DNA of 64,000 bases from Labilibaculum sp. (GTDB lineage Bacteria > Bacteroidota > Bacteroidia > Bacteroidales > Marinifilaceae): NCBI GenBank assembly GCA_016342745.1, contig JAEINT010000002.1, forward strand, positions 310,001 to 374,000, written 5' to 3'. This document shows, piece after piece, positions 23,274 through 33,080 of the stretch (its first letter is position 1; each line of letters opens with the position of its first letter). The notes below the pieces were generated by a model, which saw only the letters and a list, made by a program, of their open reading frames with translations, ran no database searches and was not told where the DNA came from. Both the position numbers and the translations under genes were made by a program.

Positions 23274-25025
23274 TTATCGTTTTAAAAGTTTCTTGGTGAC
23301 TCTATTGCCATTCTTGGTAATAAAGGTCACAAAATACATCCCTTTTGGTAAATTAGTTATTGAAATTCTGGAATCTGGAGATTTTATTTCCATGATGTTT
23401 CGACCTGTTAAATTCGAAATATGCATAGACTCTACATCTTCCATATTTGTTATGCGAATTTCATTTTTTGCAGGATTTGGGTAGAATGAAGGACTTTTTT
23501 CTGCAAAGAAATCATCTATACCAGTTGGTAGCTCCGTTGTAAAGGACCAATAAGTATCCGAGTCAATACCTTTAAAAGCTGCACCATTTGCACTTACAAA
23601 TGCATTCTCATCAATAATAACATTGTATTCTGTGTTCTCATTTAGCGCTTCAGAAAGCTCAATTGTCACATACTCGCCATCAAATGTAGCTGCAACAGAT
23701 GCTAACATTTCCATGACTTTTGTTCCATTACTATAGATCGATATTTGACCATTTCCAGCTTGCACGTCTTTATCAAAAGTGATTTCTAAATCAGTATCAA
23801 CAGATACCGATTCGCTATCATCTTCTGGTGAGAATTCCACAATAGTTGGAGGAGCATAGGTTGCAGTAAAATTCCAAGTCTCTTTATCAGATATACCATC
23901 AAAAGAATTAGAAGATGCGTCGGTAATTACACCATTATCAATGGTCACGTAATACTTTGTTCCTTCTTCAAATTTAGCCTCAGGATTGATAAGAACTTTG
24001 TTATTTGTAAATGTAACTCTAGGATTGTTGACCGCACTTAAGGTTTCAAATTCAGAATCATCATTATATCTTTTTATTACGATATTGCCAGTTCCTTCTT
24101 GCACTTCTTCGTTAAAACTTAGTGTAAGATTTGCAGTTAAAGATACTGAGGTAGTTCCATTTTCTGGAGCATATTCGGTAATGCTTGGGCTGTTGCTGTC
24201 AGTCTCAACCCAAATGGTGTTGGCCCATTCTGGGTGATCAATGAACGGATTTCTATTGCCCTGAATTTCATGTACTTTGTTGTTTCTAGAAAGTTCGAGA
24301 TCATCAACAGGATCAAGAGAGTTCCACTCAAGTAAAGTAGATAATTTCCCAAAGAAAGGAGCAGTATAATTTTCCTTGCTATAGGTCATGTCGTTGGTCA
24401 TCTCTAAATCAGGATTGTTTCCTTCACCTTCGTATCGAACTGCCATGTATAAGATCATTCTCGCAATATCACCTTTGACAGCATCTCGTGGTTCCCATGA
24501 ATCGTCGTCACTTGAGCATTCTGTTGCTTCTGAATGTGCATCACCGCCATTGTCGAAAAATAAATTGCTTCGATCTGAATTTACGCTTTTGTCGCAAGGA
24601 CGTAAAGCATGAATATCGGTAGCAGCACCTGGGTTTTCTCTAGGATCACCACCAAAACCGTGGGATTTTGCCCAAATATGTTCTCTATTCCAAGCATCAG
24701 CATCACTCGTTCCATCATCTTTGTGTGTTTTAAGATCACTTCTGCCAGTATAGATTAGGATAACGTTGTTCGAGTTTGCCGGATCTTCATCGGTAAGTTC
24801 TAGTGCTTCCCATACATTGTAATCATCACCATCTGCTTTTGACGTATAAGGCAGTACCGTATGATCACTAATGATAAAATGAAGCGCTGTTTTTAGTTCG
24901 CCGCCAGTTTTATTAGACGCGGATTGATAGTATTCTTCAATATTAACTTGAGCCGCCGAAGAAAAAACGAAGGTTACAAGAAGTGTTAAAGAAAGAAAGA
25001 GTTTTGAGTGTAAAAATTTTATCAT
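23274..25025 (-). CDS. Secreted endonuclease I with two Ig-like (Big_5) domains and T9SS tail
   Basis: A 583-residue secreted protein. A signal peptide ends SSAA-Q. Residues about 30-275 are an endonuclease I domain with WNREHIWAKSHG and TDIHALRP, the zinc/magnesium ββα-metal region of this family. Two SbsA/Big_5 domains follow (about 285-385 and 390-495; EYAPENGTTSVSLTANLTL and EFSPEDDSESVSVDTDLEI). The last 75 residues (FYPNPAKNEIRI ... GMYFVTF ... KKLLKR) form a type A T9SS sorting domain, so the protein crosses the outer membrane by type IX secretion. It likely degrades extracellular DNA or RNA. Confidence 0.92.
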   Translation of the reverse strand: MIKFLHSKLFLSLTLLVTFVFSSAAQVNIEEYYQSASNKTGGELKTALHFIISDHTVLPYTSKADGDDYNVWEALELTDEDPANSNNVILIYTGRSDLKTHKDDGTSDADAWNREHIWAKSHGFGGDPRENPGAATDIHALRPCDKSVNSDRSNLFFDNGGDAHSEATECSSDDDSWEPRDAVKGDIARMILYMAVRYEGEGNNPDLEMTNDMTYSKENYTAPFFGKLSTLLEWNSLDPVDDLELSRNNKVHEIQGNRNPFIDHPEWANTIWVETDSNSPSITEYAPENGTTSVSLTANLTLSFNEEVQEGTGNIVIKRYNDDSEFETLSAVNNPRVTFTNNKVLINPEAKFEEGTKYYVTIDNGVITDASSNSFDGISDKETWNFTATYAPPTIVEFSPEDDSESVSVDTDLEITFDKDVQAGNGQISIYSNGTKVMEMLASVAATFDGEYVTIELSEALNENTEYNVIIDENAFVSANGAAFKGIDSDTYWSFTTELPTGIDDFFAEKSPSFYPNPAKNEIRITNMEDVESMHISNLTGRNIMEIKSPDSRISITNLPKGMYFVTFITKNGNRVTKKLLKR

Positions 25026-27646: not shown

Positions 27647-27731
27647 ATGATGAATTTTAGAATTTTAACAAAAATAGAAGAATTTTTGAACAGATGTTCG
27701 ATTTAATAAAGAGAAATTTTTGAGCACAAAA

Positions 27732-27756
27732 AAAGCCATTCGCAATGAATGGCTTT
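27732..27756 (-). terminator. tRNA-Asn terminator hairpin, copy 1
   Basis: A perfect 10-bp stem AAAGCCATTC/GAATGGCTTT with a GCAAT loop and a U tract on the minus-strand side. It is the same hairpin that ends the intact tRNA-Asn cluster (29136-29160). Confidence 0.85.
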
Positions 27757-27762
27757 CTGTTG

Positions 27763-27815
27763 CTCCCTCTCTTGGACTCGAACCATCCCGACCAGTCGGG
27801 ACTGATTAACAGTCA
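27763..27815 (-). pseudogene. Truncated tRNA-Asn fragment 1
   Basis: The acceptor 3' strand and T-arm 3' part (CTCCCTCTCTTGGACTCGAA on the plus strand) and the anticodon arm (TGACTGTTAATCAG on the minus strand) match the intact tRNA-Asn. The 5' half is missing and replaced by the GIY-YIG gene. The T-stem 5' strand and variable loop are replaced by TCCCGACCAGTCGGGA (27786-27801). Confidence 0.85.
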
Positions 27816-28108
27816 ATCGATATTGTTTTTAGGAGATCAGAAAATATTTTTTCTCCTTCCATCGGATCTAATAGTTTTTCTAGATATATCCGACTCTTCA
27901 TTTTCTTTATTTTTCGTTCTATTTTTAATGCAAGTGTTCTATTGTCTCCAACTTTAAGTGCTTTTTTGAGAATCCAAGGCTTGTGTTTTAAAGTAAAACT
28001 TGCTCTTATGGGATTGTTATGCATGAAAATTCGTTTGGAAACATTTTCAGTGGATCCTAAATAATATTTATCAGATGTTGGCGAGTATAGAATATATATG
28101 AAAAACAT
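27806..28108 (-). CDS. GIY-YIG nuclease-like protein, copy 1
   Basis: A 100-residue single-domain GIY-YIG protein of the URI/UvrC N-terminal type. The signature reads FIYILYSPTSDKYYLGST (IYI ... YYLG), followed by the catalytic-type Arg in VSKRIFMHN and the metal-binding Glu in LKIERKIKKMKS. It is not linked to a DNA-binding domain. Its last residues (ISIDC) and stop come from the tRNA anticodon arm. It is identical in protein sequence to copy 2, 448 bp away. Such small nuclease genes are often found beside tRNA genes in Bacteroidetes (from general knowledge), and may act as homing or mobility nucleases. Confidence 0.88.
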   Translation of the reverse strand: MFFIYILYSPTSDKYYLGSTENVSKRIFMHNNPIRASFTLKHKPWILKKALKVGDNRTLALKIERKIKKMKSRIYLEKLLDPMEGEKIFSDLLKTISIDC

Positions 28109-28179
28109 AAATTTAATTTAGGGAAATTTCTAAATATATGCAGGATTTGGCAGGGAAGGAGAAATTTTTGAGCACAAAA

Positions 28180-28204
28180 AAAGCCATTCGCAATGAATGG
28201 CTTT
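28180..28204 (-). terminator. tRNA-Asn terminator hairpin, copy 2
   Basis: Identical to copy 1 in stem and loop. It lies about 50 bp upstream of GIY-YIG copy 1 and could end transcription of unit 2 before copy 1 is read. Confidence 0.8.
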
Positions 28205-28210
28205 CCGTAG

Positions 28211-28263
28211 CTCCCTCTCTTCGACTCGAACCATCCCGACCAGTCGGGACTGATTAACAGTCA
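28211..28263 (-). pseudogene. Truncated tRNA-Asn fragment 2
   Basis: Same structure as fragment 1, with the palindrome at 28234-28249. It carries one extra change in the T-arm (TTCGACTCGAA for TTGGACTCGAA on the plus strand). Confidence 0.85.
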
Positions 28264-28556
28264 ATGGATATTGTTTTTAGGAGATCAGAAAATATTTTTT
28301 CTCCTTCCATCGGATCTAATAGTTTTTCTAGATATATCCGACTCTTCATTTTCTTTATTTTTCGTTCTATTTTTAATGCAAGTGTTCTATTGTCTCCAAC
28401 TTTAAGTGCTTTTTTGAGAATCCAAGGCTTGTGTTTTAAAGTAAAACTTGCTCTTATGGGATTGTTATGCATGAAAATTCGTTTGGAAACATTTTCAGTG
28501 GATCCTAAATAATATTTATCAGATGTTGGCGAGTATAGAATATATATGAAAAACAT
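28254..28556 (-). CDS. GIY-YIG nuclease-like protein, copy 2
   Basis: A 100-residue protein with exactly the same amino-acid sequence as copy 1. The coding DNA differs at one position I can see (Ser codon TCC against TCG near the end), a silent change. This points to a recent tandem duplication or ongoing gene conversion. The stop codon again overlaps the GTT anticodon of the tRNA remnant. Confidence 0.88.
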   Translation of the reverse strand: MFFIYILYSPTSDKYYLGSTENVSKRIFMHNNPIRASFTLKHKPWILKKALKVGDNRTLALKIERKIKKMKSRIYLEKLLDPMEGEKIFSDLLKTISIDC

Positions 28557-28627
28557 AAATTTAATTTAGGGAAATTTCTAATTATATGCAGGATTTGGCA
28601 GGGAAGGAGAAATTTTTGAGCACAAAA

Positions 28628-28652
28628 AAAGCCATTCGCAATGAATGACTTT
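28628..28652 (-). terminator. tRNA-Asn terminator hairpin, copy 3
   Basis: Same as the other copies except for one G-to-A change on the plus strand (GAATGACTTT) that breaks a stem pair. Confidence 0.65.
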
Positions 28653-28658
28653 CTGTTA

Positions 28659-28740
28659 CTCCCTCTCTTGGACTCGAACCATCCCGACCAGTCGGGACTG
28701 ATTAATAGTCAGATGCTATAACTATCTGACCTAGAAGGGA
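28659..28740 (-). pseudogene. Degenerate full-length tRNA-Asn-like sequence 3
   Basis: Both halves are still recognisable, but the D-arm is altered and the anticodon loop reads ATT instead of GTT. The 16-bp palindrome (28682-28697) replaces the T-stem 5' strand, so a normal T-arm cannot form. I regard it as a pseudogene. Confidence 0.75.
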
Positions 28741-28881
28741 TTGTGTTTTAATTTTCTTATGAATCGTACCGCTTATCCCTTATATTCAGTATGTAAGTTA
28801 TTTTTAGAAGATTATAAAATATATGCTTAAGATTAAATTTTTCACAAATTTTGTGGGGAAATATAAATTCAGGGCACAAAA

Positions 28882-28906
28882 AAAGCCATTCGCAATGAAT
28901 GGCTTT
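28882..28906 (-). terminator. tRNA-Asn terminator hairpin, copy 4
   Basis: A perfect copy of the 10-bp stem and GCAAT loop. Confidence 0.8.
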
Positions 28907-28912
28907 CTATTG

Positions 28913-28994
28913 CTCCCTCTCTTGGACTCGAACCATCTCGACCAGTCGGGACTGATCAACAGTTAAGTGCTATAACTATCTGATCTAGAAGGGA
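28913..28994 (-). pseudogene. Degenerate full-length tRNA-Asn-like sequence 4
   Basis: It keeps a GTT anticodon, but the anticodon stem has several changes and the T-arm 5' strand is again replaced by the palindrome, here with one mismatch (28936-28951). It differs from copy 3 by transitions only. Confidence 0.75.
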
Positions 28995-29135
28995 TTGTGT
29001 TTTAATTTTCTTATGAATCGTACCGCTTATCCCTTATATTCAGTATGTAAGTTATTTTTAGAAGATTATAAAATATATGCTTAAGATTAAATTTTTCACA
29101 AATTTTGTGGGGAAATATAAATTCAGGGCACAAAA

Positions 29136-29160
29136 AAAGCCATTCGCAATGAATGGCTTT
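29136..29160 (-). terminator. Terminator of the intact tRNA-Asn cluster (copy 5)
   Basis: The perfect hairpin lies 6 bp beyond the 3' end of the last intact tRNA-Asn and has a U tract on the minus strand. It is the probable source of the other four copies. Confidence 0.9.
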
Positions 29161-29166
29161 CTGTAG

Positions 29167-29240
29167 CTCCCTCTCTTGGACTCGAACCAAGGACCCTCTG
29201 ATTAACAGTCAGATGCTCTAACCAGCTGAGCTAAGAAGGA
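29167..29240 (-). tRNA. tRNA-Asn (GTT), copy A
   Basis: A 74-nt cloverleaf: acceptor TCCTTCT/AGAGGGA, D-arm GCTC...GAGC, anticodon arm TCTGA CTGTTAA TCAGA, T-arm CTTGG TTCGAGT CCAAG, discriminator G. CCA is not encoded. It is the distal member of the three-tRNA transcript. Confidence 0.96.
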
Positions 29241-29285
29241 ATACTGTCCTAAATTATTTTGAAAGCAATTAGGCTGCTTTTGTAG

Positions 29286-29359
29286 CTCCCTCTCTTGGAC
29301 TCGAACCAAGGACCCTCTGATTAACAGTCAGATGCTCTAACCAGCTGAGCTAAGAAGGA
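29286..29359 (-). tRNA. tRNA-Asn (GTT), copy B
   Basis: Identical to copy A over the 74 nt. The 45-bp spacer between A and B resembles the one between B and C. Confidence 0.96.
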
Positions 29360-29405
29360 ATGCTGTCCTAAATTATTTTAAAAGCAATTAGGCTGCTTTT
29401 TGTTG

Positions 29406-29479
29406 CTCCCTCTCTAGGACTTGAACCTAGGACCCTCTGATTAACAGTCAGATGCTCTAACCAACTGAGCTAAGAAGGA
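29406..29479 (-). tRNA. tRNA-Asn (GTT), copy C
   Basis: Same cloverleaf, with compensatory T-arm changes (CTAGG TTCAAGT CCTAG) and one D-loop change. It is the promoter-proximal copy. Confidence 0.96.
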
Positions 29480-31140: not shown

Positions 31141-31800
31141 ATGAATTTAAGATATCTACTCTTCTTAGTTGCCATACTTGGTTTTTTTTCAAAAAGCAAC
31201 GCACAATATTACAAGGATGGTAAATTTTTAATTGGAGCCTCAGTTGGTTACCAATACCCTTTAGGTGATTTTGGAAAACAAGCAAAAGCTGGACCTTCGT
31301 TTAAAGCAATAGGTCAAATGATGCTAAATAAGAAAATTGGAGTTGGAGCTGAATTGGGTTATAGTACCTTAGGTCAAGATGATTTTTGGAACGGTAGCCA
31401 TTTGGGCAATTATGATGTGAATTATTCTATCCTATCAGCACAACTAAAGGGATCTTTTTATTTTGATACTTGGGATCGTGATTTTCGACCTTATGCCACT
31501 TTAGCTTTTGGTTATTTTCTATACCGAAATGAAATTGGGTTTATTTCAACTTCAAGCGGGAGTGTTAATCAAAAAAGAACAATTAAAGAAAATAAAGTTG
31601 GTCTAACGCCAATTGTAGGCTTTTTGTATCATTTATCAGACCAATGGAGTTTCGATATGAACCTAAGATATACCTACATTCCTGATTTCCCTCAAACAGT
31701 TGATGCGAAGAACGAATTGGGAGAGACCTATCAGTATTATTTGGGATTTGACAAGATCTCCCTTCCCGAATTGTCTATTGGATTGTTTTATCGTTTTTAA
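31141..31800 (+). CDS. Outer-membrane beta-barrel protein, OprF-N/OMP_b-brl type
   Basis: A 219-residue protein with a signal peptide (ending SNAQ) and about eight predicted beta strands: KFLIGASVGYQYPLGDF, KKIGVGAELGYSTL, FRPYATLAFGYFLY, ending in LSIGLFYRF with C-terminal Phe as in outer-membrane barrels. The function is not known. Its stop overlaps the convergent kinase gene by 4 bp. Confidence 0.78.
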   Translation: MNLRYLLFLVAILGFFSKSNAQYYKDGKFLIGASVGYQYPLGDFGKQAKAGPSFKAIGQMMLNKKIGVGAELGYSTLGQDDFWNGSHLGNYDVNYSILSAQLKGSFYFDTWDRDFRPYATLAFGYFLYRNEIGFISTSSGSVNQKRTIKENKVGLTPIVGFLYHLSDQWSFDMNLRYTYIPDFPQTVDAKNELGETYQYYLGFDKISLPELSIGLFYRF

Positions 31801-32411
31801 AACAATCCGTGAATTTGAGCTTCTACTTTATCCACAATCCCATTTAAATCTTCTGGGTTTTCAAGAAAATCAAGATTTTCGGCATCGATAATAAGTAGTT
31901 TCCCTCTTGAATAATTTTTAATCCAATTTTCGTAACGAGTATTCAAATTCTTTAGGTAATCTAAACGAATGGTTTCTTCGTAATTACGACCTCTTTTTTG
32001 GATGTTGTTAACCAAAGTAGGTACTGAAGATCTTAGATAGATTAGCAAATCTGGCGCTTGAACCATCGATCCCATTAATTCGAATAGGTTATTGTAGTTT
32101 TTAAAATCACGCTCGCTCATTAGCTCCATATCGTACAAATTAGGAGCAAAAATCATGGCGTCTTCGTAAATGGTTCTATCTTGAATTACGTTTTTACCCG
32201 ATTTACGGATTTCCATAATCTGATTGAAACGGCTCTTTAAAAAATAGATCTGAAGATTAAAAGACCATCTTTGCATATCATCGTAGAAATCATTTAGATA
32301 TGGATTTTCATCCACTTCTTCGTAATGTGCTTCCCAATTGTAATGTTTCGCTAAGAGTTCTGTAAGGGTAGTTTTCCCAGATCCGATATTACCGGCTACT
32401 GCAATATGCAT
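31797..32411 (-). CDS. Deoxynucleoside kinase, copy 1
   Basis: A 204-residue kinase that phosphorylates deoxynucleosides (deoxyadenosine/deoxyguanosine-type family). Seen are the P-loop GNIGSGKTT, the EEVDENPYLNDFYDD segment, QDRTIYEDA (the DRS-like substrate motif) and the LID Arg motif RGRNYEETI. It salvages DNA precursors. The upstream neighbour is a paralogue of the same length. Roughly two thirds of residues match. The two may differ in base preference, as in Bacillus dAK/dGK pairs. Confidence 0.92.
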   Translation of the reverse strand: MHIAVAGNIGSGKTTLTELLAKHYNWEAHYEEVDENPYLNDFYDDMQRWSFNLQIYFLKSRFNQIMEIRKSGKNVIQDRTIYEDAMIFAPNLYDMELMSERDFKNYNNLFELMGSMVQAPDLLIYLRSSVPTLVNNIQKRGRNYEETIRLDYLKNLNTRYENWIKNYSRGKLLIIDAENLDFLENPEDLNGIVDKVEAQIHGLF

Positions 32412-32465: not shown

Positions 32466-33080
32466 TTAAAATAGACCGTTTAGTTGAGCATCAATCTTAT
32501 TAATAACTTCACTTAGGTCTTTTGGCTTACCCATAAAATCGATGTTATCTACATCAATAATCAAAAGTTTACCATTCTTATAGCCACTAATCCAAGCTTC
32601 GTATCGTTCATTTAATCTTTTCAGATAATCCAAACGAATGGTTTCTTCGTAATCGCGACCTCTAGCCTGAATGTGTTCAACCAAAGTAGGTATCGAAGCA
32701 CGTAAGTATATCAGTAAATCAGGAGGTTGTATAAGTGAACTCATGATGTTGAAAAGAGAAAGGTAATTGTCAAAATCTCTTTTTGGCATCAGACTCATCG
32801 ACTCTAAATTAGGAGCAAAAATATAAGCATCCTCGTAAATCGTTCTATCTTGAATAATTTCTTTTCCAGATTTTCGTAATGCCAATACTTGATTGAATCG
32901 ACTGTTTAAAAAGTGGATCTGCAGGGCAAACGACCATCTTTTCATATCGTCGTAAAAATCATTTAAATACGGGTTTTCATCTACATCTTCGAAATGAGCT
33001 TCCCATCCGTAATGTTTTGCTAATAATCCTGCTAGTGTAGTTTTACCTGCACCAATATTTCCGGCAACTGCAATGTGCAT
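32466..33080 (-). CDS. Deoxynucleoside kinase, copy 2
   Basis: A 204-residue paralogue of the next gene, with P-loop GNIGAGKTT, EDVDENPYLNDFYDD, QDRTIYEDA and RGRDYEETI. Differences concentrate in the substrate-lid region (SLMPKRDFDNYLSLFNIM versus ELMSERDFKNYNNLFELM) and the C-terminal half. The 54-bp spacing and shared orientation suggest one transcript. Confidence 0.92.
   Translation of the reverse strand: MHIAVAGNIGAGKTTLAGLLAKHYGWEAHFEDVDENPYLNDFYDDMKRWSFALQIHFLNSRFNQVLALRKSGKEIIQDRTIYEDAYIFAPNLESMSLMPKRDFDNYLSLFNIMSSLIQPPDLLIYLRASIPTLVEHIQARGRDYEETIRLDYLKRLNERYEAWISGYKNGKLLIIDVDNIDFMGKPKDLSEVINKIDAQLNGLF

Follow-up and report, generated by a model that had tools for sequence, protein, structure and literature searches.

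The tRNA-Asn locus of a Labilibaculum species carries a tandem array in which a minute GIY-YIG nuclease gene is nested in broken copies of the tRNA gene. The array occupies positions 27711 to 29479, on the minus strand, of the window, by which we mean the whole 64,000-nucleotide stretch of contig JAEINT010000002.1 analyzed here. There is, in our judgment, about an even chance that it is a tandem of selfish nuclease units that live on tRNA genes and are copied by break-induced recombination between tRNA copies. A preliminary description, made from the letters of the stretch, had called the locus the window's strongest candidate for an undescribed mobile system; the array that it reported is confirmed, a palindrome in each broken copy escaped it, and the arrangement proves to be phylum-wide, with 15 tRNA identities. 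If our reading is true, minute nuclease parasites live on the tRNA genes of an entire bacterial phylum, and we would expect annotation to show of each no more than a GIY-YIG protein, with a tRNA fragment at most. The units would then be a chromosomal counterpart of the recently described tRNA amplification by the phage nuclease SegB; they might be what drives tandem tRNA copy number, and they would be candidates for the agent behind the phylum's palindromic repeats. A single small protein and short DNA substrates would suffice to put the reading to a direct test.

In the whole window ARAGORN calls three tRNAs and no more, each a tRNA-Asn(GTT) on the minus strand. In the direction of transcription these intact genes stand at 29405..29479, 29285..29359, and 29166..29240, the last followed by a terminator-like hairpin (29136-29160), and behind them come damaged units of 254, 254, 448, and 448 bp. 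This order of three intact and four damaged copies had been proposed in the preliminary description, and ARAGORN and repeat searches agree with it; the unit sizes likewise agree with a direct-repeat search, in which a 71-nucleotide block bearing the hairpin recurs in five copies at spacings of 448, 448, 254, and 254. Tandem Repeats Finder returns a period of 448 at 27711-28711 (98% matches) and a period of 254 at 28620-29189 (96%). By repeat finding and alignment, the two shorter units, unit 4 (28861-29114) and unit 3 (28607-28860), each hold a degenerate, full-length tRNA-Asn (28913..28994 and 28659..28740, respectively). The two longer ones, unit 2 (28159-28606) and unit 1 (27711-28158), retain only the 3' half of the tRNA, from the anticodon loop on (28211..28262 and 27763..27814), and its 5' half is replaced by an open reading frame (ORF) of 100 codons (28254..28556 and 27806..28108) whose stop codon, TAA, falls within TGTTAA, the anticodon loop of the pseudo-tRNA.

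All four damaged copies share one lesion. The segment AGGGTCCT, which spans the end of the anticodon stem, the variable loop, and the start of the T stem, is swapped for a 16-bp palindrome, TCCCGACTGGTCGGGA, which alignment and palindrome search place at 28936-28951 (unit 4, with one mismatch), 28682-28697 (unit 3), 28234-28249 (unit 2), and 27786-27801 (unit 1); across the genome, with at most one mismatch allowed, it occurs at these four sites only. Each unit also closes with the hairpin of the last intact tRNA, AAAGCCATTC..GAATGGCTTT, a 25-nucleotide structure detected by inverted-repeat search and RNA folding, whose five copies start at 27732 (27732..27756), 28180, 28628, 28882, and 29136, one of them with a base change. 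The preliminary description was right to assign a hairpin to every unit and wrong to have the units begin with it, for in the direction of transcription they end with it. A tool-based terminator scan called 0 terminators at this hairpin, so that the word terminator is our interpretation, shared with the preliminary description, and not a tool result; the pseudo-tRNA and hairpin of unit 2 do fold well as RNA (z = -3.3 relative to shuffles).

Between units 1 and 2, which encode identical proteins, there are 5 differences in 448 positions, and between units 3 and 4 there are 18 in 254; these are therefore distinct copies of different age. When remnants of the GIY-YIG gene were sought in units 3 and 4, only short, weak matches beyond the shared tRNA part were found. 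The GIY-YIG frame is the only ORF of at least 100 amino acids in each 448-bp unit, which also contains two shorter, overlapping plus-strand ORFs (70 and 82 amino acids) that were not searched. A genome search with the anticodon arm of tRNA-Asn (up to two mismatches) returned 17 places, among which the three intact genes are the only exact ones; the remainder are three broken copies, nine places without an ARAGORN tRNA, and two that were not fetched. On this search, which would miss a gene with a very different anticodon arm, the three intact genes look like the only tRNA-Asn genes of an assembly that is 99.96% complete. Intact copies are retained upstream of the damaged units, as had been supposed.

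The proteins of the two longer units are indeed identical, as the preliminary description stated, and both match PF01541 with an E value of 1.2e-12. Residues Y5, Y16, R26, H30, and E64, which we take to be the catalytic residues of the GIY-YIG domain, are invariant in 22 of 22 aligned sequences, and a domain with this Y, Y, R, H, E set places the window protein in the GIY-YIG superfamily. Its AlphaFold2 model has a mean predicted local distance difference test score (pLDDT) of 88. The closest solved sequences and fold are those of UPF0213 (BH0048, EF2693) and Slx1: an hmmsearch of the PDB gives E values of 2.4e-12 (1zg2) and 4e-10 (1ywl) for UPF0213, 5.2e-7 for the best SLX1, and merely 0.035 for I-TevI, and Foldseek's top rows are At-HIGLE/SLX1 at modest scores (best E 4.3e-3, none below 1e-3). 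The window protein thus sits with UPF0213 and the prokaryotic Slx1-like proteins, being like them a minimal domain without extra domains. It is the small GIY-YIG nuclease of the preliminary description, but it is closer to this minimal type than to the known homing enzymes mentioned there. Its TIGR01453 score is 22.1 bits (cut-off, 56.05), and we find no sequence relationship that would assign it to the SegB or group I intron endonuclease family. Weak signals point the other way: PHROG 314 and PHROG 7168, both labeled "homing endonuclease," are matched by 3 and 1 of 22 members, respectively (best E 4.8e-5). The protein may nonetheless work, by analogy, as SegB and the intron endonucleases do. 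A group I intron in the tRNA was considered and rejected: the gene lies beside a broken copy, the intact tRNAs are continuous, and the TIGR01453 score falls well short of the family's threshold. Over 15 pairs of six genes of the tRNA-Asn family, the ratio of nonsynonymous to synonymous substitution rates (dN/dS) is 0.10-0.27, several pairs having saturated dS; the gene therefore appears to be kept for its protein, under purifying selection.

Relatives offer both empty and filled sites (G numbers denote genomes and L numbers loci). The window protein has a match at an E value of 1e-3 in 28 of 96 genomes, its own included, the weakest matches not lying at tRNAs; the relatives compared include Labilibaculum manganireducens, a Marinifilaceae bacterium, a metagenome-assembled genome of Labilibaculum, and Draconibacterium. 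In close relatives the GIY-YIG genes lie at a tRNA-Asn cluster adjoining a PAP2 gene. This site is empty in three genomes (G021, G028, G018), holds a decayed fragment, judged by eye, in another (G008), and is filled by a single GIY unit at L012, L013, L014, and L017, by one broken copy and one GIY unit with an internal stop at L011, and by two GIY units, the second cut by the contig end, at L015. The order of tRNA, GIY-YIG gene, and copy is found at L016 too, but with the PAP2 gene ~3.6 kb further on. In filled sites (the window, L014, L017) the stretch of the last tRNA from T arm to hairpin is repeated on both sides of the GIY-YIG gene, as direct repeats. The preliminary description had named beforehand a fixed copy number and divergence in distant genera as the observation that would count against it; the number of GIY units at the corresponding locus is instead 0, 1, or 2. 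Its suggestion that a nuclease may invade a tRNA locus and then duplicate or convert it stands for the tie between nuclease and tRNA locus and for the duplication of units, but neither invasion nor conversion was shown. The intact tRNA-Asn genes are themselves in tandem, three in the window and two to four in the relatives read, and L012 has five ARAGORN tRNA-Asn calls, two of which bear the palindrome.

The tie to tRNA genes holds across the phylum. Our phylum sample, chosen without regard to context, consists of the best-scoring among the PF01541 matches listed for 80 genomes; 109 loci were fetched, 107 of them with their domain in the tree (L158 and L185 are absent from it as duplicate or short), and one listed match with a 435-amino-acid frame and G147:C34:9539 were left out. 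The tree comprises 145 distinct GIY domains (phylum loci, relatives, and L001) kept from 166, rows of fewer than 60 residues and duplicate domains being excluded. Duplicate records L038 and L040-L043 were left out of the pooled counts and the tree; L040-L042 and L044 were used for the fold. The tree divides into 75 and 70 rows. Of the phylum-sample loci on the side of the window protein, 34 of 42 have an intact tRNA no more than 400 bp away, and on the other side 1 of 65 has one; counted per protein row, the figures are 36/50 versus 1/67 (Fisher p = 1.6e-17). On the window-protein side, 29 of these rows have a same-strand tRNA upstream and 8 have one downstream, and no intact tRNA on the opposite strand was seen within 400 bp. 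With all loci pooled, 53 of 166 GIY hits (43 loci; 28 hits from the phylum sample and 25 from relatives) follow a tRNA on the same strand and are themselves followed by a repeat of that tRNA's 3' end, which answers the preliminary description's call for a search for GIY-YIG genes joined to tRNA 3' parts. Runs of two or more GIY hits occur at 17 of the 66 tRNA-side loci and at 2 of the 68 on the other side. A gene at tRNA genes, in tandem segments, is the arrangement of the SegB-type free-standing homing endonucleases.

Nuclease lineage is also tied to tRNA identity. For this test each combination of taxonomic family and tRNA identity was represented once; in 18 of 42 cases the closest GIY outside the family had the same tRNA identity (2000 shuffles: mean 2.5, maximum 11), with 20 of the 61 identities assigned by hand. 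Units that spread through homology with their own tRNA gene, or through a specificity for it, would be expected to show such a tie. The 53 hits comprise Ala, Asn, Asp, Gln, Gly, Leu, Lys, Met, Phe, Pro, Ser, Thr, and Val, to which the reading of further loci added Cys and Arg, for 15 identities in all; one upstream tRNA (L035, called Phe-aaa) is itself a broken Val copy, and the "fMet" identity is an interpretation of tRNA features.

The broken copies carry their hairpins at different places: in the anticodon arm at Val, Lys, Gly, Gln, and others; in the T arm at Ser, Thr, and others, in several cases exactly between GGTTC and GA; and in the variable region at initiator Met and at Asn, the family of the window protein. 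Some have two hairpins. An inverted repeat with arms of at least 6 lies at the disrupted site in 36 of 47 distinct pseudo-tRNAs and in 7 of 47 intact-tRNA equivalents, an automatic count that overlooks imperfect ones (inspection by eye shows inserts in L223, L190, and L167). The hand-assigned position labels T, AC, and V are each clustered on the tree (0 of 500 shuffles as low), and the label AC+T is unclustered (500 of 500). The 5' acceptor strand is absent from the GIY units read, and the hairpins often replace an arm at about equal size. Mirror units exist as well, at tRNA-Arg (L200, L171, L194), tRNA-Ala (L206), and tRNA-Leu (L179), with the intact tRNA downstream and a broken 5' part upstream; their palindrome lies in or near the D arm or, at L194, in the anticodon stem.

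In two genomes the host appears to be another structured RNA. The GIY-YIG gene of G148 (L148/L246, G148:C16 190971-191171) and that of G159 (L180/L245, G159:C1 1050839-1051042) lie between inverted repeats in the apparent P3 hairpin of an RNase P RNA gene, which in either genome is the only one found. The covariance-model match to RNase P RNA starts at the end of the GIY-YIG gene; we place the 5' strand of the RNA upstream of that gene on account of its sequence, the fold of the joined flanks, and the congeners G120, G132, and G163, which have a similar RNase P 5' strand and a short P3 at the position of the GIY-YIG gene.

Known systems share parts of this anatomy. Integrative elements with tyrosine integrases use tRNA 3' ends, and like them the units here are preceded by an intact tRNA and followed by a duplicate of a tRNA 3' part; unlike them they measure 448 bp, carry a hairpin in the downstream copy, and lack an integrase-sized ORF, the only ORF of at least 100 amino acids in them being a GIY-YIG gene and not a site-specific recombinase. 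Repetitive extragenic palindromic (REP) sequences and their RAYTs likewise combine a small nuclease gene with palindromic repeats, related palindromes being scattered in the genome, but RAYTs are HUH-type (Y1) transposases and the enzyme here is a GIY-YIG nuclease. Slx1 is a repair enzyme, whereas the window gene is nested in tRNA copies. Prokaryotic Slx1 members consist of a minimal GIY-YIG domain without auxiliary domains, like the window protein (PMC1564403); of the three mentions of "tRNA" in that paper, the passage available to us concerns a TrmH fusion and not neighboring tRNA genes. In the full-text literature searched, which excludes most subscription papers, we found no description of GIY-YIG genes with broken tRNA copies, and no paper that contains both "GIY-YIG" and "repetitive extragenic palindromic."

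The precedent for nuclease-driven growth of a tRNA array comes from phage. SegB of phage T6, a GIY-YIG enzyme beside tRNA genes, is described in the passages available to us as cutting inside tRNA genes, as required for the tandem amplification of a tRNA segment, and as having the motif RAWTSGAAC (PMC13096335). Read on the other strand, GTTCSAWTY, this motif is by our reading the tRNA T-loop, and several units here carry their hairpin in the T-loop. In the T4 map, as in our units, the nuclease gene (SegB of T4/T6) adjoins same-strand tRNA genes. SegB differs in being 221 amino acids long, phage-borne, and weakly similar, whereas the window gene is chromosomal, encodes 100 amino acids, and comes with a hairpin-bearing pseudo-tRNA; the string "palindrom" is absent from the main text of the SegB paper, whose available passages mention no such broken tRNA copies (PMC13096335).

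Because of this precedent and of the T-loop reading of its motif, we favor a scenario in which units spread and multiply by breaks at tRNA arms followed by recombination through 3' ends. The unit would comprise a minimal GIY-YIG gene, a hairpin-bearing broken tRNA 3' part, and the tRNA gene's own terminator-like hairpin. The nuclease would break the DNA at a tRNA gene arm, most likely where the broken copy carries its hairpin; the cell would mend it by recombining through the 3' end that the tRNA copies have in common; and repair would copy the unit into an empty tRNA locus, possibly passing it from strain to strain, or add a unit in tandem, with one complete tRNA gene rebuilt in each round. 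The hairpin would make the broken copy refractory to cutting, a role favored by its position in tRNA arms and by SegB. We group the units with the tRNA-linked free-standing nucleases, and there is a fair chance that they form a class of their own.

A number of observations weigh against this scenario. Cleavage and mobility are inferred, and neither was observed. The window protein is closest to UPF0213/Slx1 and lacks an extra DNA-binding domain, and its match to T4 SegB is weak (hhalign, 26 columns, probability 29%). Were any kind of disruption enough to protect the copy, deletions would be expected as often as hairpins. Three loci with an upstream tRNA (L163, L211, L213) have no recognizable broken copy downstream, and L162 has no clear hairpin insert. 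The deep split of the GIY tree receives only 78% in the Shimodaira-Hasegawa-like approximate likelihood-ratio test (SH-aLRT), and the tie to tRNA identity could also be explained by vertical inheritance in place. Around the proposed cut site the intact tRNA-Asn genes are, by eye, alike in filled and empty genomes (G030/G021; G035/G028), so that the host must keep several cuttable copies if that site is the target. A search of 50,697 phage records at an E value of 1e-3 yielded no relative of the window protein, and of the 24 stretches of viral contigs that matched a pattern none encodes one, so the units have no known vehicle. On these phage and viral-contig searches we rejected phage cargo as an explanation, the plasmid collection lying outside the search. 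Recoding of the intact tRNA as self-protection was likewise set aside, the tRNA-Asn genes of filled and empty relatives showing no difference by eye.

The palindromes themselves have a wider distribution. Those of the form TCCCGA-N3-9-TCGGGA are scattered over many genomes of the phylum (G000, G004, G011, G018, G028, G030, G066, and others), and their counts far exceed those of a reversed control: 22 versus 2 in the window's own genome (G000), 66 versus 1 in G018, and 44 versus 0 in G011. There are 21 in G021, in which no relative of the window protein was found. At 16 loci whose context was read, only two (L006, L049) lie in tRNA copies. For a REP/RAYT-like element, whose palindrome would recur through the genome, the signals are mixed: in G000 the arms TCCCGA/TCGGGA are dispersed, yet the exact window palindrome is confined to the array. 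Given the dispersal of the arms, we rejected the idea that they are a motif private to the units. Whether palindrome type goes with GIY type could not be told apart from relatedness in the counts of TCCCGA and TCCGCC, and the comparison was not used. The TCCGCC type in G016 has 8 of its 12 sites inside one array. That array (L034, about 830-2000; G016:C5:22852-24127) has eight exact palindromes of this type around a single GIY-YIG gene, mostly 128-129 bp apart, in tandem initiator-tRNA fragments that share one terminator-like hairpin.

Of 18 loci read, nearly all from the other clade of the tree and picked for flagged repeats or palindromes, most have REP-like palindromes near the GIY-YIG gene. 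Genes of that clade lie amid REP-like repeats at L140, L141, L145, L215, L156, L157, L153, L189, and L161, the last with three tandem GIY-YIG genes, and the repeat types include GTCATCCTGAAC..GTTCAGGATGAC, oppositely oriented on the two sides, ATTGCGAGG..GAAGCAATC, and GTCATTCCCGCG. We offer, tentatively and with the balance leaning somewhat against it, a broader proposal: that there is a phylum-wide, undescribed class of smallest mobile units, in which Slx1-type GIY-YIG genes sit in or next to hairpins of essential structured RNA genes (tRNA arms, and P3 of RNase P RNA in two genomes), rebuild the host gene upon insertion, and leave or move palindromes into broken copies. With a sister clade living among REP-like palindromes, one nuclease family would then drive both tRNA arrays and REP-like repeats in this phylum.

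The hairpin may, on the other hand, be what the nuclease cuts. A structure-selective, Slx1-like enzyme would then attack a cruciform or hairpin in the broken copy, unequal repair would grow or shrink the arrays, and the dispersed palindromes would be related nonautonomous sites, as REPs are for RAYTs. We think this unlikely but a serious contender. The unchanged intact tRNAs, alike in filled and empty genomes, and the kinship to Slx1 (UPF0213 1zg2 and SLX1 being the neighbors in sequence and fold) favor the hairpin as the substrate, and the recurrence of hairpins in units of unrelated sequence, the REP-like palindromes near most of the 18 genes just described, and the genome-wide dispersal of TCCCGA-N-TCGGGA are all consistent with it. 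Cutting of the donor alone, however, does not fill an empty site, such palindromes are frequent even where no relative of the protein was found (21 in G021), and nothing in this explanation demands that hairpins occupy tRNA arms.

Somewhat less credible still is a passive build-up, in which ordinary unequal recombination duplicates tRNA genes, dispersed palindromes land in the spare copies, and the GIY-YIG gene is a hitchhiker without a role. Units without the gene do carry hairpins (window units 3 and 4; L034, with eight exact palindromes and one GIY-YIG gene), and palindromes are dispersed genome-wide. Against it, the GIY-YIG genes of one side of the tree only lie at same-strand tRNAs (34/42 versus 1/65 loci), the protein is kept by purifying selection, and the order of gene plus copy recurs at many tRNA identities.

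We consider it improbable that the explanation lies at the RNA level, with the hairpin-bearing tRNA fragment serving as a 3' untranslated structure to stabilize or control the mRNA of the nuclease, and with RNase P kept away by the lack of the 5' acceptor strand. The absence of that strand from the GIY units read, the arm-sized hairpin replacements, and a region that folds better than shuffles (z = -3.3) would all suit such a role, but units without the gene retain the hairpin, and in the mirror units L200, L171, L194, and L206 the gene is preceded by the broken part and followed by the intact tRNA, which excludes a 3' structure there. Very improbable is a host benefit in which the unit increases the dosage of tRNA genes when needed, say under attack by toxins that cut tRNAs, in the way that SegB serves phage T6 (PMC13096335, in the passages available): the tandem intact tRNA-Asn genes (three in the window, two to four in relatives) and the phage precedent fit it, but empty relatives have as many intact tRNA-Asn genes or more (four each in G021 and G028), and presence is patchy (28/96 genomes).

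Two further features of the window lie on either side of the array. At 31797-32411 and 32466-33080 (minus strand) are two adjacent, similar ORFs of 204 amino acids that form a tandem duplicate pair and resemble deoxynucleoside kinases (GNIGSGKTT / GNIGAGKTT). At 23274-25025, also on the minus strand, domain searches find an Endonuclease I that carries Ig-like domains and has a sorting tail for type IX secretion.

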